Positions 3,218-45,063 are shown, counted from the stretch's first letter. The stretch is DNA of 64,000 nucleotides from Methanocaldococcus bathoardescens (GCF_000739065.1 NZ_CP009149.1:1116001-1180000); one strand, 5' to 3'. Notes: generated by a model from the sequence alone, not told the origin. Numbers and translations are program-made.

Positions 3218-4292
3218 ACTCTGCACACTCCCCATAAATACTGTTTATTATTGATTTAATGTTTTCTTTTGCAATTACTGTAGCTATAGGCTCTCCTTTC
3301 TCTATAACTGCATTTTTCTTTGGAATATCATATATAAAGTCTCTTTTTGATATATTCACAATAATTTTTTCTTTAGCAAACAATATTCTCTTTATATATG
3401 ATTCTTTTGGTTTGATTTCTTTAGCATAGTTATTATTTAATAAAGCCTTTGCTAAATTTTGAGACGCACTCATCTCTATAGTTTCAAACGTTCCTAAAAT
3501 TCGTGGGTTTATATCAACAATATATGGCTCACTATCTTTAATTAAAAAATCAATACCGTTCATTCCTTTTAATTCAAAAGTTTCTATAACCTCTCCAAAT
3601 ATTTTAACAAACTTATTTGGCAAATTTAGATATGGTGTTAAATTCCCAGCATACATTCCCTTAATAATAATTTGTTTGTTAAAGGTTATAAATGTATTGC
3701 CTATAAAGTTAGCACTAAAACTTTTCCCTCTAACATACTCTTGAGCAATGATTGGGAACTTAATTCCATAAATTAACCCATCATTAAGATTATTTAAATT
3801 TATCTTTAAAATTCCTCCTCCACTACCGTAAATAGGCTTTAAAATACAAAATTTAAATTCTTCTAAAAATTTATATAACTGAGTTTTATTATTAATTTTC
3901 TTTGTTTCAGGTATATTAAAACCAAGATTTTTTAATTTTTTATATGTTTTATGTTTGTTGCTGATTTCATTTATCTTTTTTGGTTCATTCCCTACAACAT
4001 TGTCCCATTTTGGAATTTTCGAATTTTCGAATTCAAAAACACCTGAAGTTATAAAGACATAATCAACTTCATCAACTAACTCATTAGCTATCTCAATTAA
4101 TCTATTCTCATTATAATTCTCCTTCAATCTTCCATGAGCTAAGGGATTTATCAGATAATATTTTTTATCAGCATTTAAATCTTCTGGGGCATAGTAAGAG
4201 ACAGAGTATACATAGAATCCTAATTTTTTTAAAGAATTAACTATAGGTCTTGTATTAACTCCTAAAACCAAAGCTTTCAAATTCTCCCTCAT
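3183..4292 (-). CDS. ATP-grasp domain enzyme of unknown substrate
   Basis: About 369 residues from the ATG at 4292, where the protein begins M-R-E-N-L-K-A-L-V-L-G-V-N-T-R-P. That is the typical Rossmann-like start of this ATP-grasp group. The grasp core includes the nucleotide-loop lysines (C-I-L-K-P-I-Y-G-S-G-G-G) and the metal ligands in I-D-I-N-P-R. Such proteins form carboxylate-amine bonds using ATP; the substrate cannot be predicted. An earlier in-frame ATG at 4355 would overlap mptA by 16 bases and adds an implausible hydrophobic leader. The gene lies between mptA and tfe in one leftward block. Confidence 0.75.
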   Translation of the reverse strand: MRENLKALVLGVNTRPIVNSLKKLGFYVYSVSYYAPEDLNADKKYYLINPLAHGRLKENYNENRLIEIANELVDEVDYVFITSGVFEFENSKIPKWDNVVGNEPKKINEISNKHKTYKKLKNLGFNIPETKKINNKTQLYKFLEEFKFCILKPIYGSGGGILKINLNNLNDGLIYGIKFPIIAQEYVRGKSFSANFIGNTFITFNKQIIIKGMYAGNLTPYLNLPNKFVKIFGEVIETFELKGMNGIDFLIKDSEPYIVDINPRILGTFETIEMSASQNLAKALLNNNYAKEIKPKESYIKRILFAKEKIIVNISKRDFIYDIPKKNAVIEKGEPIATVIAKENIKSIINSIYGECAEYEKRKEDREDI

Positions 4293-4339: not shown

Positions 4340-5287
4340 TTAAATTTGAATACATTCAAGTTCTCTCCTTAATTCTCCAAGTGTTGCTACTTTTTCAGCA
4401 AATGCATCATGTCTATGAATACTTTCCATATTTATTTGCCTAATTGAAACCTTTGTTTCATCTGGTAAGTGTTTAAATTTCTCCACCACTCTCTTAGCCA
4501 TCTCTCTAACACAATCCTCAACAAACTTAGGATTTTTATGGCTTTGCTCAACAACATAAGCTTCATCAGCTCTCTTTAATATCCCATAAATCTCAGCACT
4601 CATGGATTTCTTAATTATCTCTATAATATCCATAATCTCAATATCATAACCAGTAGGAACTTCTAATATAATTCTACCAATTCCTCTCTGATTGTGGGTA
4701 GCAAAGATAACAGAATCCAATATTTTCTCAATATCTTCATCAGAGAATCCTTTTTCTTTTAAATTTTTAATAGATATCTCTTTTATTAAATTTTGAGCAC
4801 ATGGGCAAGCAGTGATGCCAACAACTTCAGCCCCAACAATTTTTGTTATTTCAATTTTATCATCTTTCTTTATTCCTTTAGCTCCACCCATGATTTTATG
4901 TATCTCCTGAGAATATTTCTCAGATATTGGGCTTTTCTCCTTAGTCATGAAATCACTAACCATGAAAACCTCTGCCTCTGTAGCGTATTCATGTTTCTCA
5001 AACAATCTCTTAACTATCTCCTCACAAATTGTTTCTATCTCATAACTTTCCATCTCTAATGCTTCATCTATTATTCCCTCTATAACCTCAGGATTTCTTG
5101 ACATGTGAATACCTTTTTGTGAGCTCGGCAGATTAACAAAAACTTCAAAGGTGGATAATAGAATTATTGGTCTTTTATTATTTGTTCTTTTTAATCTAAC
5201 AAGTTTTTTTAGATTTGTAACTCCAACTCTTGTTAATGATATTTTAACATCCGGTTCAAAATTTTGAATATCACATTTCCAATTCAT
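4340..5287 (-). CDS. mptA: GTP cyclohydrolase MptA (Fe(II)-dependent, FolE2 family)
   Basis: About 315 residues of the FolE2/MptA family. MptA converts GTP to 7,8-dihydro-D-neopterin 2',3'-cyclic phosphate, the first step of tetrahydromethanopterin synthesis. Visible signatures are S-L-T-R-V-G-V-T-N near the N-terminus, the conserved cysteine of G-I-T-A-C-P-C-A-Q, F-A-T-H-N-Q-R-G and the C-terminal S-I-H-R-H-D-A-F-A. A GTG at 5296 and ATGs at 5290 and 5287 are possible starts. I prefer 5287, which has the best spacing from GGTGA. The start lies inside the end of the Cdc6-like gene (17-base overlap). Confidence 0.92.
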   Translation of the reverse strand: MNWKCDIQNFEPDVKISLTRVGVTNLKKLVRLKRTNNKRPIILLSTFEVFVNLPSSQKGIHMSRNPEVIEGIIDEALEMESYEIETICEEIVKRLFEKHEYATEAEVFMVSDFMTKEKSPISEKYSQEIHKIMGGAKGIKKDDKIEITKIVGAEVVGITACPCAQNLIKEISIKNLKEKGFSDEDIEKILDSVIFATHNQRGIGRIILEVPTGYDIEIMDIIEIIKKSMSAEIYGILKRADEAYVVEQSHKNPKFVEDCVREMAKRVVEKFKHLPDETKVSIRQINMESIHRHDAFAEKVATLGELRRELECIQI

Positions 5288-6500
5288 CATCTTCACCTAT
5301 TAAGACATCCCTAAGTTCTTTAGATAGTCTATAATACACATTGTTTCCATCCCTTTCTTTATAAATATATCCCATCTCATAAATATCTGATAAGTGTGTT
5401 CCAATAGTGCTTGGTGATTTTTTTAGATATTCTGCAAGTTGAGTTACTGTTGCTGAACCTCCAAGCTCAGCCATTGCTCTAACAATCTCTGATTGAGCTG
5501 GGGTCAAATGATTCAAAATTTGATGCCCTACACTAATCCCAAGAGAATGCATTGCCTCTTTAACAACCTTTTCATCTATCTTAGTTAAACCTTTTCTTAT
5601 AGCTATTGATATTGATTCGGAGCAAGTCATTATTATCTTTCTTGGAATTCCATCACATTCTTCAACAATCTTATGTATGGCTTCTTCAGTAAATGGCTCA
5701 AATTCCTCAGCACCATCTATATGAGCATCTTCCAATCTTCTTCTAATTAAATCATAAGATTCATCTTTTGATAAAGGTGGCATATTTATTATTTTAGGAA
5801 TCCTATCTTTTATTGGCGGGGATATTTTTGTTAAATCATCCATTAATGTTGGTGAACCAGCCATAAAGGTTAATATCCCCTCTTCATATAAAAATGAGTG
5901 GAAAAATTGAAGTAAGCTTAAGCAACTCTTTTTTGCAAATTGGTCTGCTTCATCAATTAAAATTATGCATAACTTATCAGGACTTTTAACTTCATTTATT
6001 AAATATTCTAAATCTCTTTCAATTCTCTCTCTTGGATAATGGATAGGAACTTTATCCCCATAGTTGTTTAACTTCCTATACATATCCAAAATTCTATTTG
6101 AATGTTCCATATAATCAGATTTTATAGTTCCGCTCATAGTTAGAATATTTTCAGTTAATATATTGTATAAAAGTTGTATCAAAAACTGTCTTGGCGTTAC
6201 TTGAGATGCTGTCATTTCAACAACCCAGTGTCCTTGCTTTTTTGTAGCATAGTATATGATGTTAAGCATTGAACTCTTCCCTATCCCTTTAGTCCCGACT
6301 ATTGCGGCATTAGCTACACTACCATGCAAAGCTGAACCCAAAATTTCTCCAATCTCTCTCAACTCACTAACTCTACCAACAAAAAACTTTGTATTCCCCC
6401 TTATTGGCTTCTCAGAAAATGGATTATATTTTAATTTCAATTTATGCATGGTGCTTGCTATAGAGCTTGCAGATTTTTGTATAAACTCTATTGGGTCCAT
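5271..6500 (-). CDS. Divergent Orc1/Cdc6-like AAA+ ATPase with C-terminal winged helix
   Basis: A 409-residue protein. Residues 24-45 (K-Y-N-P-F-S ... F-V-G-R) are an Orc1/Cdc6-type entry motif, Walker A is G-T-K-G-I-G-K-S-S (69-77) and Walker B is I-I-L-I-D-E-A-D (179-186). A lid domain follows. Residues about 335-400 form a winged helix with A-T-V-T-Q-L-A-E-Y-L and S-P-S-T-I-G-T-H-L. This is the plan of an archaeal origin recognition protein. Methanocaldococcus lacks a canonical Orc1/Cdc6, and I recall the homologue MJ0774 being proposed for that role. GGTGG precedes the ATG. Upstream lies a 683-bp repeat-bearing intergenic region. Alternative: a transcription-related ATPase. Confidence 0.75.
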   Translation of the reverse strand: MDPIEFIQKSASSIASTMHKLKLKYNPFSEKPIRGNTKFFVGRVSELREIGEILGSALHGSVANAAIVGTKGIGKSSMLNIIYYATKKQGHWVVEMTASQVTPRQFLIQLLYNILTENILTMSGTIKSDYMEHSNRILDMYRKLNNYGDKVPIHYPRERIERDLEYLINEVKSPDKLCIILIDEADQFAKKSCLSLLQFFHSFLYEEGILTFMAGSPTLMDDLTKISPPIKDRIPKIINMPPLSKDESYDLIRRRLEDAHIDGAEEFEPFTEEAIHKIVEECDGIPRKIIMTCSESISIAIRKGLTKIDEKVVKEAMHSLGISVGHQILNHLTPAQSEIVRAMAELGGSATVTQLAEYLKKSPSTIGTHLSDIYEMGYIYKERDGNNVYYRLSKELRDVLIGEDDELEM

Positions 6501-7183
6501 GTTTCCACCGGTAATAAAATATGAATTAATTTGAATTGATAATTATAATGTTTTGTAGTAGTTTCGAATTTTTGTTCTAAGTGTATTATATAGATTTCGA
6601 AAAATCGAACAATAGATACAATTAATTATTTATTAATTTAAATATTCCATTATATATTTTGTAATTAAATTTTAAAAAATATTATGAATCAAGAAATAAA
6701 ATTAAAAAATATCATGAATCAAATAGTATTTTATAAGATATAAGAGAATATAACTCTCAGAAATAAACTTGAATAAAAATAAAAATAATATATATACTAT
6801 TCTAATAAAATAAAGTTAATTTTAATTCTTCTCGTAGGAATTATTACAACACACGAAAAATAAAATATCGTGAATCAAAACTTATAATTTATAAAATGCT
6901 ATGAATCAAAAATTATATACAAATTAACAGTATATTAAAACTATTTAATATCAATAAAGAAAAATAGATTATAGGCATATAACAGAAATAAATAAATACA
7001 TGCTCTATCAAAACGTATATACAAATAAAAGTTTTCAAAAGGTCAGTAATACTACGATGAAAAATTAGTGGACAAAACTATATCGTGAATCAAAAGATTT
7101 ATAAGTGAGTGTGGTAAATACAATTGAATATTAGTAAGACAACACCACAAAAATAACTAATATTAAAAATAAAGGTGTTATAG
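6501..7183. other. AT-rich repeat-bearing intergenic region, replication-origin candidate
   Basis: This 683-bp non-coding stretch separates the leftward Cdc6-like gene from the rightward wHTH-SWIM gene. It is extremely AT-rich and holds five same-strand copies of a TGAATCAA-centred repeat. I see no ORF or RNA gene in it. A Cdc6-like gene beside a long AT-rich region with iterated sites is the usual archaeal origin layout. I recall a computational (Z-curve) origin prediction near the M. jannaschii homologue. Promoters for both flanking genes must also lie here. Confidence 0.55.
6683..7095 (+). repeat. Five dispersed TATCGTGAATCAAAA-type repeats
   Basis: The copies start near 6683 (tatgaatcaag), 6711 (atcatgaatcaaat), 6866 (atatcgtgaatcaaaa), 6900 (ctatgaatcaaaaa) and 7080 (atatcgtgaatcaaaa). 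The copies at 6866-6881 and 7080-7095 are identical over 16 bp. All are on the same strand. They are candidate binding sites for the adjacent Cdc6-like or wHTH protein. Confidence 0.7.
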
Positions 7184-7711
7184 ATGGAAAGACTACCATA
7201 CGAAATAGTATCCACTATATTTAGAAAAGCCATTTTACATTATGTGTTAATACGTGGCACAACTTATCCACAATCACTCTCAGAAAATTTAAATATATCG
7301 AAAGGTCTTGCAAGCTCTTTTTTAAGGTTGTGCTCAGCTCTAAATATAATGAAGAGGGAAAGAGCAGGGCATAAAGTTTTATATTCATTTACCTCAAAAG
7401 GATTAGCAATATTAAAAAGATTAGCCCCAGAAATATTCGATTTGAGTTTTTCGAGTGTTTTCGAAAAATTACCTAAAAAGAAAATTGCCACTAAGTATTA
7501 CCCAGTGGATAGAATAGGGTTTGAAATTAAATGGAAAGAGGATAAACTTGGTGGAATGATATTTTCATTCTTTGATTCCAATGGAGAGCATTTAGGAGAC
7601 GTTTTTAGAAGCAATAAAGGTCATTGGTGGTGTGTAATTTGTCAGAGTGATAACTGTAAACATATCGATTATCTGAAAAAGCTCTACAATACATTAAAAA
7701 ATCAGAATTAA
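7184..7711 (+). CDS. Winged-helix protein with C-terminal SWIM-like zinc motif
   Basis: A 175-residue protein. Residues about 10-80 form a winged helix (S-L-S-E-N-L-N-I-S-K-G-L-A-S-S-F-L-R, then a basic wing). The C-terminus has V-I-C-Q-S-D-N-C-K-H-I-D-Y-L, the C-x(n)-C-x-H arrangement of a SWIM zinc module, usually involved in DNA or protein binding. It lies between the repeat region and the inverted-repeat element, so it may act on one or both, either in replication or as an autoregulator. No characterised homologue is known to me. The start is ATG at 7184 with a weak GGTGTTATAG upstream. Confidence 0.65.
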   Translation: MERLPYEIVSTIFRKAILHYVLIRGTTYPQSLSENLNISKGLASSFLRLCSALNIMKRERAGHKVLYSFTSKGLAILKRLAPEIFDLSFSSVFEKLPKKKIATKYYPVDRIGFEIKWKEDKLGGMIFSFFDSNGEHLGDVFRSNKGHWWCVICQSDNCKHIDYLKKLYNTLKNQN

Positions 7712-7715
7712 TAAA

Positions 7716-8091
7716 TTTCGAGTTTTCGAGTTGCATGTATGTATATGGTTAGCAGACGAGCAAGAATTTTTTAAAGCGTCGATTATCACAAAAATAAGAT
7801 AGTGGTTACTGTATCTTATTTTGTATAACAAACACTTATCATCAGTGTTTTAAACTGTTTCATCGTTTTTAATTTTTATTTTTTAAAAATAACAATTTTT
7901 TAATGTTATTTTTTATTAATATCTTGTAATATATTATACTAAAATTTAAAACTTAAAGATTTTTTTATTTTTACTTATATAGAGAAAAAAAGTATAATTA
8001 TATAATAATTGTGTTTGTGATAATCACAACCACCATTAGCTCTCGATAAAAGATTTTCTCATATACATACATGCAACTCGAAAACTCGAAA
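7716..8091. repeat. Perfect 32-bp inverted repeat flanking an AT-rich core
   Basis: Bases 7716-7747 (beginning tttcgagttttcgag) are the exact reverse complement of 8060-8091. Inside lies a second perfect 12-bp inverted pair, gattatcacaaa at 7781-7792 against tttgtgataatc at 8015-8026. The core from about 7855 to 8010 is nearly pure A+T. Two hairpins occupy the left side. Possible identities are paired origin-binding sites flanking an unwinding element, a MITE-like non-autonomous element, or a large cruciform. I cannot choose between these from one copy. Confidence 0.75.
7792..7850. repeat. Two adjacent perfect hairpins inside the inverted-repeat element
   Basis: The first has arms 7792-7801 (aaataagata) and 7812-7821 with a 10-base loop. 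The second has arms 7830-7836 (aaacact) and 7844-7850 with a 7-base loop. Either could be a transcription terminator-like or protein-recognised structure. Neither is followed by a classic T-run on the plus strand. Confidence 0.6.
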
Positions 8092-8232
8092 ATCTTATGA
8101 GAAACTAATATTTAAATTAATTTTCTTAAAATACTAATTCTGTATCAAAAAAGAAAACAAGATTTTGTCATAACTTTACACAATCAATAAATATTAATAC
8201 TACACTCGTTTTTAGTATGATTCTTCTTAGCT

Positions 8233-9294
8233 TTATATGTTCTTCGAAAATTCGAAAATCCGTATATTCCATGGTATGCTATCTAACAAAAAAATAGAGA
8301 ACCAATGAGTATAGTTATTTTTAGATTTTTTAATGAGCTCTAAAAGGATGTTTCTATTTAGCCTTATTTTGAATCTAACTTTGCCTCTATACTTTATTTT
8401 TGTTAATATTCCTAACTCAACCAACTCATCTAAATATCTGTATAGGGTTGATAATTTATAATTAACTTTATAAGCAATATTTTCAACTTTAAACTTCCTT
8501 AGTTCAATTATGACTTCAACCAATTTTCGATATTTCGAATCTACTATATATGGTAAAATCTTAAGCCATGGAATTTTTAGCTCTCTAAGATTTCTTATTT
8601 CCCTTTTTGAGTGTCTTAATATTAAATATATTGTTTCTAAGTTTCCATTAGTTGTGTTTAAGAGATATTTAGCTACTCTATCACTTATATAATAACCATG
8701 AACCTTTGCAAAGTATTTTATAGCTGCTTTTGTATTTAAAATACCTTCTGGAAAAAGTTTTTTTATCTCTTCATGGCATTCAATTGGGTATCTTATTACA
8801 ACACTTAAATTATTCTTCCTTAATTCTTTAACAAAGTTTATAAAACTCTTTCCATAATGCCATTTCCTTATATCATGCACATCAAAAACAATTATTGGAT
8901 TTAAAACTCTTAATAGTGAAATTATTTTCCCAACAACTTTTTTGAATTCCCATTTCCTTATATTTTTAAATAAATCACCTATTCCCCTATACCATGCTTT
9001 TTTAGCCTTGTAATAGTTATCAAATTCTATCTTGTTGCTCATATATTCTAAAAGATTTTTTAGCCAATTTGCTTTTTTATGGTCTTTAAAATAGTAATAT
9101 TTGTCTTTAATTTGATAAATAGTCTTTGCTATTGTCTTTTTTAGATTTGGTGTTGCTAAAATTCTAATTATTGGTATATTATCAACTACTTCAAAATTTC
9201 CATTCTCATCTAATTCCAATAAATTCCCTCTGTCTGTTGGAATTAAATATAATCCATTTAAAAATTCTTCGGGAACTGCCCTTACAAGCTTCAT
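8233..9294 (-). CDS. Archaeal protein with degenerate ATPase-like core and C-terminal winged helix
   Basis: 353 residues. I do not recognise a characterised family. The middle contains P-I-I-V-F-D-V-H-D-I-R-K-W, which looks like a Walker B/sensor strand, and N-N-L-S-V-V-I-R-Y-P, but there is no Walker A, so this may be an inactivated AAA-like fold. The C-terminal part (about 265-330) is a winged helix (V-E-N-I-A-Y-K-V-N-Y-K-L-S-T-L-Y-R-Y-L). The protein is lysine/arginine-rich. Its start overlaps the end of cbiL by four bases. A DNA-binding or regulatory role is an inference from the winged helix only. Confidence 0.6.
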   Translation of the reverse strand: MKLVRAVPEEFLNGLYLIPTDRGNLLELDENGNFEVVDNIPIIRILATPNLKKTIAKTIYQIKDKYYYFKDHKKANWLKNLLEYMSNKIEFDNYYKAKKAWYRGIGDLFKNIRKWEFKKVVGKIISLLRVLNPIIVFDVHDIRKWHYGKSFINFVKELRKNNLSVVIRYPIECHEEIKKLFPEGILNTKAAIKYFAKVHGYYISDRVAKYLLNTTNGNLETIYLILRHSKREIRNLRELKIPWLKILPYIVDSKYRKLVEVIIELRKFKVENIAYKVNYKLSTLYRYLDELVELGILTKIKYRGKVRFKIRLNRNILLELIKKSKNNYTHWFSIFLLDSIPWNIRIFEFSKNI

Positions 9295-9974
9295 TTCTTA
9301 ACCCTCTTTATTATAGCTAAGGAAAGATAGTCATTGAATTCATCAAAATTTAACTCATCTAATTTACCAATTGCTATTTTTTCATCTTCAAATGTTACTC
9401 TCTTTACTAAACCAACTATATAATCATCCCTATCTTTTATTTTTTCTAACTTTTCCTTTAAATTCTTTGTTTTCATAATAATTATTGTGTCAAATTCATT
9501 AATATATTTCTCTAAATCTTTCCCCTGTGGAAGAATGCAGAGTTTTTCATCTCCTTCAACTAATGGAATGCCTAAAGCAGATGCAGAGGCAAAGATTGAA
9601 GATATTCCGTTGATTATTTCTATCTCAACTCCTTTCTCTCTTAAAAGTTTCCAAACATAAGAGAATGTGCTGTAAAGTGTGGGGTCGCCAATTGTTATTA
9701 TAGCAACTTCCCCTTCTTCTTTTAAAACTTTTTCCAAAGCATTTTCCCAATATTTTTTTAATTTTTCTTTATCTTTAATCATTGGAAATAAAAGTTCTTC
9801 AACATCCTTTCCATCAACATAGTCTTTTATAATCTCATAGGCGATTGATTTTTTTCCTTCTTTGGATATTGGGACAAATATTTTATCCACTTTTTTTAAA
9901 ACTTCTAAAGCTTTTAAAGTTAGTAGCTTTTTGTCTCCAACTCCCACACCAATGCCATAAACTTTTTTTACCAT
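9291..9974 (-). CDS. cbiL: Cobalt-factor II / precorrin-2 C20-methyltransferase
   Basis: A 227-residue SAM-dependent tetrapyrrole methylase. It shows the opening G-I-G-V-G-V-G-D (residues 7-14), the G-D-P-T-L-Y-S-T-F motif near residue 115 and G-I-S-S-I-F-A-S-A-S-A-L-G-I-P near 140, all typical of CbiL/CobI. It adds the C20 methyl group in anaerobic cobalamin (and related corrinoid) synthesis, needed for methyl transfer in methanogenesis. The length is normal for the family. It lies on the same strand as cofE, about 20 bases downstream. Confidence 0.88.
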   Translation of the reverse strand: MVKKVYGIGVGVGDKKLLTLKALEVLKKVDKIFVPISKEGKKSIAYEIIKDYVDGKDVEELLFPMIKDKEKLKKYWENALEKVLKEEGEVAIITIGDPTLYSTFSYVWKLLREKGVEIEIINGISSIFASASALGIPLVEGDEKLCILPQGKDLEKYINEFDTIIIMKTKNLKEKLEKIKDRDDYIVGLVKRVTFEDEKIAIGKLDELNFDEFNDYLSLAIIKRVKK

Positions 9975-9995
9975 TTAAACTCACCAGATTAATTT

Positions 9996-10745
9996 TTAAT
10001 TCCTAAAAACATCTTCTTCTTTTGGTCTAATTAAATCTTTTCCTTTTCCATCACCAAATGGAACTTTAGCTCCTCTAATTATTACAACAGGGATTCCTTC
10101 ATTAGCTTCTCCCATAACTACATTTGCCATACTTGCTAACTCATCAGCAATAGCGACTTCAGTAGTTTTTAACTCCCTTCCAAATAAATCTTTTTCTCCT
10201 TTTCTATCCCACAATGCTAAGATTCCACTAACGCCAATGGCAATTCCAACAGCTCCTTTTCTAAACGGTCTTCCAACACTATCTGATATTATAACCCCAA
10301 CTTTTTTTCCAGTTAATTTTTCAATCTCTTTTCTAATTTTTTCAGCACTTTCATCAGGATTTTTTGGTAGAGTTTTTATTCCATTATACACATTACTTTC
10401 ATCAACACCGCTATTGGCACAAACAAAACCATGTTTTGTTTCTGTGATGATAAAGTTTTTTCCAACTTTAACTACTTCTTTTGCTTCATCTAATATAATT
10501 TGAACAACTTTTGGGTCCTTTCCAGTTTTTTCAGCTAATTCAATAGCTTCTTTCGAAGGGATTATTTTATCTCTATCTATTACGTTTCCTTCTAATTTTG
10601 AAATTAATGTTTCTGCTATTACAATAATATCCCCATCTTCAATTGGATATTGAGCAATCAACTCAGATAAATTCACATTTTCATTTCCTTTGAATATTGG
10701 TAGTTCTAAGCCAATAACTTCTACTTTTCTTTTTTCTTTAATCAT
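9996..10745 (-). CDS. cofE: Coenzyme F420-0:L-glutamate ligase CofE
   Basis: About 249 residues, the normal length of archaeal CofE, which adds glutamates to F420-0 using GTP. Typical segments are V-I-G-L-E-L-P near the start, G-D-I-I-V-I-A-E-T-L-I-S-K, K-H-G-F-V-C-A-N-S-G-V-D-E-S-N and V-I-I-S-D-S-V-G-R-P-F-R-K-G. A GTG at 10754 is in frame, but the ATG at 10745 behind GATGTGG is more likely. F420 serves the F420H2 oxidases and the F420-hydrogenase-like proteins encoded elsewhere in this window. Confidence 0.92.
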   Translation of the reverse strand: MIKEKRKVEVIGLELPIFKGNENVNLSELIAQYPIEDGDIIVIAETLISKLEGNVIDRDKIIPSKEAIELAEKTGKDPKVVQIILDEAKEVVKVGKNFIITETKHGFVCANSGVDESNVYNGIKTLPKNPDESAEKIRKEIEKLTGKKVGVIISDSVGRPFRKGAVGIAIGVSGILALWDRKGEKDLFGRELKTTEVAIADELASMANVVMGEANEGIPVVIIRGAKVPFGDGKGKDLIRPKEEDVFRN

Positions 10746-18389: not shown

Positions 18390-19124
18390 TTATTTTTTTA
18401 TAGCTTTTTCAATGCTTTCAATTGCAATATAACCAGCTTTATGTAAAATAGTGTCTCCTAACTCTTTATCCATTTCCATACTACCTAAGCATGGATAATT
18501 GTGATGAGCATTTGCTATCTCTTCTTTTAAATTGTCTAATGTTTTTCCTTTCAATCTTTTGGCTATATAGTATGTCTCTCCACATGGGGCAGAGATTTTA
18601 ACTTTAATATCTTTAATAACATTATTCTCAACTTCTATTTCTAATTCTGGTTTTCCTATCTTAAAATAATCAATAAATTTGTTTATAAACTCATTATCTT
18701 CTTTTTTCTCTAATGAGCAGAATGGTTTCGGATTTTCGAATTCTATATTATACTCTTTGCAGACTCTCTTTAAATCTCTTCTTAATGCAGGGGATAAATC
18801 ATGTGGAGTTTCAGAAGGAACAATTAAAGCTTTGTAATTTTTTTCTTTTAACAATAAAGGAAGTTCATACAACAAATCTTCATGAAGTTGAGCAATACAA
18901 ACATCTCCTTCTGGAAGTTCTGGGAGATAATCGTAAGGATTGTCTATAAATTCTTCATAAACTTCATCAATGACAATATTTTTTACATTATCTTTGAAGC
19001 TCCAATCCCCTCTGCAGTTGTAGCAATCATCACAAATTCTACAAAAATCTGGTTCATTTAATAAATTTTTATAGAATTTTTCCATTCTCTCATTTCCTCT
19101 GTGATAGATAAATACTGCTTTCAT
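18390..19124 (-). CDS. DUF166 family protein (older name: thymidylate synthase-like)
   Basis: About 244 residues. N-terminal C-R-I-C-D-D-C-Y-N-C-R-G offers four cysteines that could bind a cluster or zinc, and the C-terminal A-P-C-G-E-T-Y-Y-I-A and H-H-N-Y-P-C-L-G are conserved-looking. The homologue was once annotated as a thymidylate synthase, but there is no resemblance here to known ThyA/ThyX active sites, so I keep the neutral name. The ATG at 19124 behind GGTGAT is preferred to an in-frame start at 19136. It is the last gene of a tight leftward trio with a phosphatase-like and a TatD-like gene. Confidence 0.6.
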   Translation of the reverse strand: MKAVFIYHRGNERMEKFYKNLLNEPDFCRICDDCYNCRGDWSFKDNVKNIVIDEVYEEFIDNPYDYLPELPEGDVCIAQLHEDLLYELPLLLKEKNYKALIVPSETPHDLSPALRRDLKRVCKEYNIEFENPKPFCSLEKKEDNEFINKFIDYFKIGKPELEIEVENNVIKDIKVKISAPCGETYYIAKRLKGKTLDNLKEEIANAHHNYPCLGSMEMDKELGDTILHKAGYIAIESIEKAIKK

Positions 19125-43866: not shown

Positions 43867-45063
43867 TTACTCATTTATCTCAGCAAATACTTCATCTAAT
43901 GCATTAATTAAATCATCAATATGTTCTTTTTCTACAATTAATGGTGGTAAAAACCTTAAAACAGTATCAGAAGTGCAATTAATTAAAAATCCTTTTTCAA
44001 GCATCTTTTTAACAATTTCTGCCCCATTAAATTCAAGCTCAGAACCAATCATTAAACCTAATCCTCTAACTTCTTTTATGAAGTTGTATTTCTCTTTAAG
44101 ATTTTCGAGTTTTCGAATGAAATATTTTCCTTTTTCTATAACTTTATTATCCTTAATAAGTTCCTCTATAACCTCAATTGATGCCAAAGCAGCAGAGCAA
44201 GCCAAAGGATTTCCACCAAAGGTTGTTCCATGGTCTCCATAACTTAAAGCTTTTGCTATCTCTTCTTTTAAAACAACAGCCCCTATTGGAACTCCTCCTC
44301 CAAGAGCTTTTGCCAATGTTAAGATGTCTGGCTTTACATCATAATGCTCATAAGCAAACATTTTTCCAGTTCTTCCCATTCCACATTGAACTTCATCAAA
44401 AATTAAGACAATGTTTTTATCATCACATAAATCCCTAACAGCTTTTAAATAATCTTTATCAGCTACATGAATCCCTCCTTCTCCTTGAACTGGTTCAATT
44501 ATTATAGCAGAGGTTTTGTTGGTTATAGCTTCTTTTAAAGCCTCTATATCATTGAATGGAACATACTTGAATCCTGGAGGTAGGGGATAAAAGCCCTCCT
44601 GATACTTTGGTTTTGGTGTTGCTGCCAATGTAGTTAAAGTCCTTCCATGAAATGCATTGTACATACTGATTATTTCTCCTCCATCTTTTCCTAATATTTT
44701 TGATGCATATTTTCTTGCAAACTTTATAGCTCCTTCATTTGCCTCAGCTCCGCTGTTGCAGAAGAAAGCTCTATCTAAACCACTAAGCTCAACTAACTTT
44801 TTAGCAAGCTTTATTTGTGGGATTGTGTAGTAGATGTTTGATGTGTGTATTAAAGTTTCAGCCTGCTTTTTTATCGCTTCAACGACCTTTGGATGGCAAT
44901 GCCCTACATTATTTACTCCAATTCCAGCTAAGAAGTCAAGATACTTCTTTCCATCAATATCATAAACCTCCATTCCTTTACCTTCAACCAATACAACAGG
45001 CAATCTTCCATAAATTTGGAGATGATATTTTTTCTCTAACTCTATCCAGTTCTCTTGATTCAT
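43867..45063 (-). CDS. argD: Acetylornithine aminotransferase
   Basis: 398 residues of class III PLP aminotransferase: F-C-N-S-G-A-E-A-N-E-G-A-I-K, N-A-F-H-G-R-T-L, F-D-E-V-Q-C-G-M-G-R-T-G and the PLP lysine in T-L-A-K-A-L-G-G-G. It converts N-acetylglutamate semialdehyde to N-acetylornithine, and may also act on succinyl-diaminopimelate precursors in lysine synthesis. Confidence 0.92.
   Translation of the reverse strand: MNQENWIELEKKYHLQIYGRLPVVLVEGKGMEVYDIDGKKYLDFLAGIGVNNVGHCHPKVVEAIKKQAETLIHTSNIYYTIPQIKLAKKLVELSGLDRAFFCNSGAEANEGAIKFARKYASKILGKDGGEIISMYNAFHGRTLTTLAATPKPKYQEGFYPLPPGFKYVPFNDIEALKEAITNKTSAIIIEPVQGEGGIHVADKDYLKAVRDLCDDKNIVLIFDEVQCGMGRTGKMFAYEHYDVKPDILTLAKALGGGVPIGAVVLKEEIAKALSYGDHGTTFGGNPLACSAALASIEVIEELIKDNKVIEKGKYFIRKLENLKEKYNFIKEVRGLGLMIGSELEFNGAEIVKKMLEKGFLINCTSDTVLRFLPPLIVEKEHIDDLINALDEVFAEINE

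Follow-up and report, generated by a model that had tools for sequence, protein, structure and literature searches.

The locus described here is most probably the chromosomal replication origin of the Methanococcales, to which we assign a probability of roughly 0.8, and it would carry a dedicated initiation module composed of an AAA+ ATPase, an array of five sites, a 175-aa winged-helix protein, a dyad of about 376 bp and a 353-aa protein whose gene ancestrally stood beside that of one MCM helicase paralogue, mcm-A. It lies in the 64-kb stretch of DNA that was analysed as a whole (hereafter the window; G000:C1:1116001-1180000), part of a Methanocaldococcus genome of 1,607,556 bases. An earlier note had seen an initiator and its origin at 5271-7183. 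This is still the best reading and the comparative evidence strengthens it; at the same time, the idea is not new, the ATPase is not closest to Orc1/Cdc6, and the locus is larger, with that interval taking in the array and the ATPase gene, or half of the locus, and the dyad and the 353-aa gene lying beyond it.

The gap upstream of the ATPase gene is orthologous to G003:C1:694540-695226; we take G003 to be M. jannaschii, and this stretch to be the one that Zhang and Zhang 2004 reported. The predicted oriC of M. jannaschii (Zhang and Zhang 2004; Ori-Finder 2/DoriC ORB) occupies the orthologous gap, and its repeat motif is identical, the array repeat being the reverse complement of the Ori-Finder 2 ORB motif for the Methanococcaceae, TT[TA][GT]ATTCA[TC][GA]AT[AT]T[AT]T[AT] (PMC4164010). 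For the canonical ORB sequence the sole match, in another part of the window, is no better than chance. The Z-curve prediction lacking experimental proof that the earlier note had mentioned is borne out as well: Z-curve work placed a single oriC in M. jannaschii, which reviews call not experimentally validated (PMC5333045). The origin idea has thus already been published as an in silico prediction. In the accessible portions of the published accounts, that prediction is confined to the array, and the dyad, the boxes, the linkage of the 353-aa gene to mcm-A and the loss of the module are not described. As for the initiator, one review describes the Methanococcales as having no recognisable Orc1/Cdc6 and initiation as an intriguing unknown (PMC3984812), another states that a highly divergent Orc1/Cdc6 is present in the order (PMC5333045), and in M. 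maripaludis a 2008 study reported a Cdc6-like homologue, akin to that of M. jannaschii, near genes for MCM and DP2 (PMC2643942).

The candidate initiator, an Orc-like AAA+ ATPase of 409 aa, is encoded at 5271-6500 on the minus strand, next to repeats and AT-rich DNA. Its motifs confirm the FVGR-type entry, Walker A/B and C-terminal winged helix noted before: FFVGR stands at residues 39-43, GTKGIGKS forms Walker A and IILIDEAD Walker B, and the winged helix matches PF01022 (E=1.4e-12, residues 334-381), scoring as ArsR/MarR type. The protein thus combines an AAA+ core with a C-terminal winged helix, as Orc1/Cdc6 does. GTKGIGKS is unchanged in 18 orthologues, in whose alignment IILIDEAD takes the Walker B position, and identity over the Methanococcales ranges from 69 to 99%. 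The gene is found in 23 of the 27 genomes with completeness of at least 90%, in a single copy per genome, with a vertical pattern within the order and conserved neighbours, including mptA.

Likeness to Cdc6, which the earlier note had asserted, holds at the superfamily level only. Against the Orc1/Cdc6 model TIGR02928, the ATPase scores 40.8 bits, below the cut-off of 181.3 (a canonical plasmid Orc gives 427.7 bits), and no canonical Orc1/Cdc6 above the cut-off was found in the Methanococcales. Compared by hhalign with eight plasmid Orc1/Cdc6 proteins, a narrow and mostly haloarchaeal set, its profile gives E=8e-9; with a bacterial AAA/winged-helix family it gives E=6e-18, collinear over 346 profile columns, and is closer. 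This bacterial family of AAA_16/ATPase_2 plus winged-helix 'ATP-binding proteins' (e.g., Pantoea WP_013512264) has the NPF start, Walker motifs, lid and winged helix in common with the ATPase; it is uncharacterised, has no known array or MCM linkage, unlike the ATPase, and its bacterial hosts use DnaA. Because the profile lies closer to that family, we do not file the ATPase under Orc1/Cdc6, a sequence-based assignment that is not final, since the Orc set was narrow and mostly haloarchaeal, and the protein may still work like Orc1/Cdc6. Its AlphaFold model is of low confidence (pLDDT 59.5, with a poor AAA+ core); the top Foldseek matches of the model are Drosophila ORC and archaeal Orc1/Orc2 (E 7e-7 to 1e-6), and RuvB scores close to these. 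A search for relatives at the phylum level returned only Methanococcales, and the comparison covers this order. As a separate observation, strong PF01637 (ATPase_2) proteins give 12 matches in the genome of the window and 24 in G003, and none in a clade that lacks the module, described below.

These comparisons bear on two alternatives. According to the first, the ATPase is a canonical though divergent Orc1/Cdc6 and the direct-repeat array is by itself the origin. The Orc-like motifs, the array alongside and the earlier Z-curve and DoriC-based predictions would all fit such an arrangement, which we nevertheless regard as unlikely, given that the ATPase falls below the Orc1/Cdc6 cut-off and nearer another family, and that the locus also holds a second conserved element and an Orc-like 353-aa protein. 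According to the second, the module is the domesticated replicon of an integrated element, acquired from a plasmid or virus, and does not serve as the chromosome's main origin. The closest profile to the ATPase is indeed that of a bacterial family seen on plasmids (the search covered plasmids and phages only, and none of the phage records matched the ATPase), and extra MCM copies in the Methanococcales have been attributed to mobile elements (PMC3984812). A domesticated replicon would, however, hardly be expected to occur once per genome with a vertical pattern and conserved neighbours such as mptA, or to have boxes clustered along a chromosomal stretch exceeding 100 kb, and the odds that the module is one appear slim in the extreme.

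The main reading, a chromosomal origin, draws on the 683-bp gap between the ATPase gene and the next gene, which starts at 7184. The gap is 81.0% AT, against 66.7% for the window, and contains TGAATCAA five times, every copy on the plus strand: at 6685-6692 and, 30 bp after it, at 6715-6722 (the first doublet), 156 bp further at 6871-6878, 31 bp further at 6902-6909 and 184 bp further at 7086-7093. Over 20,000 dinucleotide-shuffled versions of the gap, TGAATCAA occurred 0.045 times on average and twice at most, and in 5,000 shuffles any 8-mer using all four letters reached three copies or fewer. Two of the sites have the 16-mer ATATCGTGAATCAAAA in common, so that the five same-strand repeats, two of them identical over 16 bp, which had been reported for this gap stand as described. 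Across the window TGAATCAA is itself common, with 12 copies against 6.3 expected, and the signal is therefore the local array. The spacing of 30/31-156-30/31-184 bp is repeated across Methanocaldococcus and, slightly shifted, in the four other genera, and in none of these was a reverse-strand site found. The core varies among genera, with TGAATCTAA or TGAATATAA taking the place of TGAATCAA, and conservation is 0.90 at the core sites versus 0.68 in the remaining gap. The doublet pattern is almost exclusive to the locus in each genome, and a reversed control pattern gives few matches. Between the doublets, an AT-rich block at 6765-6841, with AACTT...AAGTT arms around TATATATACTAT, is conserved in alignments of 13 Methanocaldococcus arrays and of the order, in most of which it is recognisable; its role may be that of an unwinding element or of a promoter for an unannotated RNA.

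One Methanocaldococcus genome, G002, separates the array from the ATPase gene. There, the ATPase gene and mptA lie together at ~297 kb (G002:C1:290000-305000), behind an unrelated 262-aa gene and with no array sites upstream of the relocated gene, and the array, the dyad and the 175-aa and 353-aa genes have stayed at ~106 kb (G002:C1:98000-114000), some 190 kb away. All five sites are kept, at spacings of 31/156/31/184 bp, with no ATPase gene alongside. The array as an operator of the ATPase gene is accordingly ruled out, because both sites and spacing have outlasted the departure of the gene. In the same genome, the array sites have partly changed to TGAACC, and the ATPase has a Y-to-C substitution (DIC vs DIY) beside the recognition helix that does not occur in 17 other aligned orthologues; co-variation between the two is possible, as a single event.

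A second cis element occupies 7716-8091, where the 175-aa and 353-aa genes converge. It is a dyad of about 376 bp, in which the 32-bp left arm TTTCGAGTTTTCGAGTTGCATGTATGTATATG (7716-7747, plus strand) is followed, after about 310 bp, by its exact reverse complement (8060-8091, minus strand). The arms enclose an AT-rich centre at 7869-7968, a candidate unwinding element of 7% GC and the second-lowest-GC 100-bp stretch of the window. This inverted pair, with an outer distance of 360-388 bp, is present in members of all five genera; at the threshold used, some genomes gave one arm only. Archaeal origins are usually laid out as inverted sites around an AT-rich core, as this dyad is, and the core may therefore be where the DNA melts. 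An Rfam scan of 5000-10000 returned no match.

The dyad arms contain a 14-bp TTTCGA box, TTTCGRNTTTTCGR, that recurs around the locus. A copy with one mismatch lies at 6597-6610 on the minus strand, in the 683-bp gap and directly ahead of where the ATPase gene begins, with TTTCGAAAAATCGAA at 6595-6609; exact copies lie at 4017-4030, 18726-18739 and 44103-44116 on the plus strand and at 8244-8257 on the minus strand, the last in the 353-aa gene, at its 3' end. Counts within 100 kb of the locus gave 19 exact copies in four genomes (588 kb sampled), namely 6 in the genome of the window, 6 in G003, 4 in G033 and 3 in G002, all of them no further than about 40 kb away. None was found in a further 1.23 Mb sampled at greater distance in these genomes, nor in 400 kb of G028, which lacks the module. 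The counts are lower bounds, since sampling was partial, and with a consensus derived from the locus itself two dyad-arm copies per genome are expected and the other copies are not. In G002 the boxes stay beside the dyad and not beside the moved ATPase gene. The boxes at 18726 and 44103, ~11 and ~36 kb out, have counterparts in G003:C1 at 681756 and 656082, ~12 and ~38 kb out; given the matching distances, these outlying boxes may be positionally conserved between the two genomes.

With both elements in hand, ordinary regulation can be weighed. The array would then serve the ATPase and 175-aa genes, which diverge from it, as an operator, and the dyad would act as the terminator for a convergent gene pair, as might be suggested by the position of the array between two divergent genes and by box copies close to where the ATPase gene begins and at the ends of genes. 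We consider this very improbable: G002 keeps five sites and their spacing with the ATPase gene gone, a geometry of ~400 bp fixed across five genera is not operator-like, nor are boxes within coding sequence and tens of kb away, and 32-bp arms about 310 bp apart make no terminator hairpin.

The main rival is a centromere or segregation locus, in which the TTTCGA boxes would be parS-like loading sites and the ATPase, 175-aa and 353-aa proteins would organise or segregate the chromosome and not initiate its replication. Boxes spread over about 60 kb either side of the locus and nearly absent elsewhere do resemble bacterial parS near oriC, whose clusters of short boxes likewise lie within tens of kb of the origin, and several proteins of the locus have winged helices. 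Yet the bacterial sequences are unrelated to the box, neither a ParA nor a ParB gene was seen adjoining the module, the modelled folds resemble Orc, the 353-aa gene stands beside mcm-A in four genera, and module and mcm-A were lost jointly. Segregation in place of initiation is thus an improbable account of the locus as a whole. A centromere role for the boxes could, however, be compatible with an origin, because centromeres usually lie near origins and the two roles can coexist.

The remaining two genes tie the proposed origin to the replication machinery. The 175-aa protein (7184-7711, plus strand) has a winged-helix-like N-terminus and a CxxC-x4-CxH C-terminus. Its identity falls to 21-23% in G018-G020, where the array sites are kept, and the winged helix of the ATPase is nearly invariant among orthologues; this divergence where the sites persist hints, at the level of sequence, that the ATPase rather than the 175-aa protein is the array binder. 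The 353-aa protein (8233-9294, minus strand) is predicted to be an Orc-like AAA+ protein with a C-terminal winged helix and without Walker A, which is absent from 20/20 homologues. Its model (pLDDT 85) finds Aeropyrum ORC1 (E=5e-4) and Sulfolobus Orc1 as best Foldseek matches, with low TM-scores, and VIA-align recovers an AAA+ fold (TnsC, MuB) over residues 1-186, with a Z of 9.7 over 143 residues for TnsC, and a winged helix over residues 241-325 with a Z of about 10. As its profile gave no AAA+ alignment with plasmid Orc1 profiles, the Orc likeness is one of modelled structure only. The 353-aa gene has mcm-A as a same-strand neighbour, 11-150 bp away, in 12 genomes of the other four genera; a 13th has the two ~1.4 kb apart. 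The MCMs adjoining the 353-aa gene form one clade, MCM-A, an ancient paralogue; in Methanocaldococcus, mcm-A is elsewhere in the genome, away from the locus.

The loss of these components is likewise concerted. The ATPase, the array and the 175-aa and 353-aa genes are all missing in five genomes (G021, G024, G025, G028 and G032) that are monophyletic on the MptA tree, four of them at least 96% complete and G028 a single contig; G026, G027 and G031 also lack the module genes and are incomplete. MCM-B is kept in all five and MCM-A in none. The mptA gene is retained and adjoins a 617-aa gene in both genomes read, G028 and G021. No ATPase_2 protein was found in G028, and those of its weak matches that were inspected in a search for Orc1/Cdc6-type proteins are of PAN, NifH and Mg-chelatase type, plus another AAA+ ATPase. 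A dedicated initiation module would show this very pattern, in which initiator, cis element and one MCM paralogue disappear together in one event. Since a clade that includes a single-contig genome lives without the module, the module is not indispensable in the order.

GC, AT, third-codon and gene-orientation skews give no clear two-replichore pattern in the portions sampled (about a quarter of the genome of the window and 27-31% of G002 and G028), and the fits on these stretches, often equalled by permutations, yield no decisive breakpoints. We propose the following course of initiation. The winged helix of the ATPase would bind the array, on which the protein would form an ordered assembly that depends on ATP, and the ATP-dead, Orc-like 353-aa partner, probably sitting at the TTTCGA dyad, would help to open the AT-rich core and to load MCM-A bidirectionally, with the 175-aa protein perhaps acting alongside it at the dyad or close by. 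Further TTTCGA boxes, up to about 60 kb away, might raise the local level of these proteins at the origin, or else aid in its organisation and segregation.

The orc1/cdc6-linked origins of Sulfolobus, Pyrococcus and haloarchaea have in common with this locus an initiator gene by an AT-rich region, inverted sites around an AT-rich core, and nearby replication genes. Unlike them, however, it has other site sequences, an additional same-strand array with fixed spacing, and two Orc-like proteins, one of which lacks Walker A. A bolder interpretation, which we hold tentatively and at somewhat less than even odds, is that the origin is bipartite and relies on a new pair of initiators, a bacterial-type AAA/winged-helix ATPase and an ATP-dead Orc-like protein with its own MCM, and that the TTTCGA box serves as a dedicated signal of the origin domain or centromere, the whole system having been discarded by one clade that replicates without it.

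Finally, the locus supplies parts that can be tested, namely two cis elements, two Orc-like proteins, a small winged-helix protein and one particular MCM, together with two natural experiments: in one species the ATPase gene has moved away from the proposed origin, and one clade is without the module and its MCM. Should replication in that clade begin at no fixed site, the clade would be nature's equivalent of the laboratory origin deletions in other archaea. The loss of the module in one lineage offers a direct route to studying initiation in these archaea without the usual initiator.
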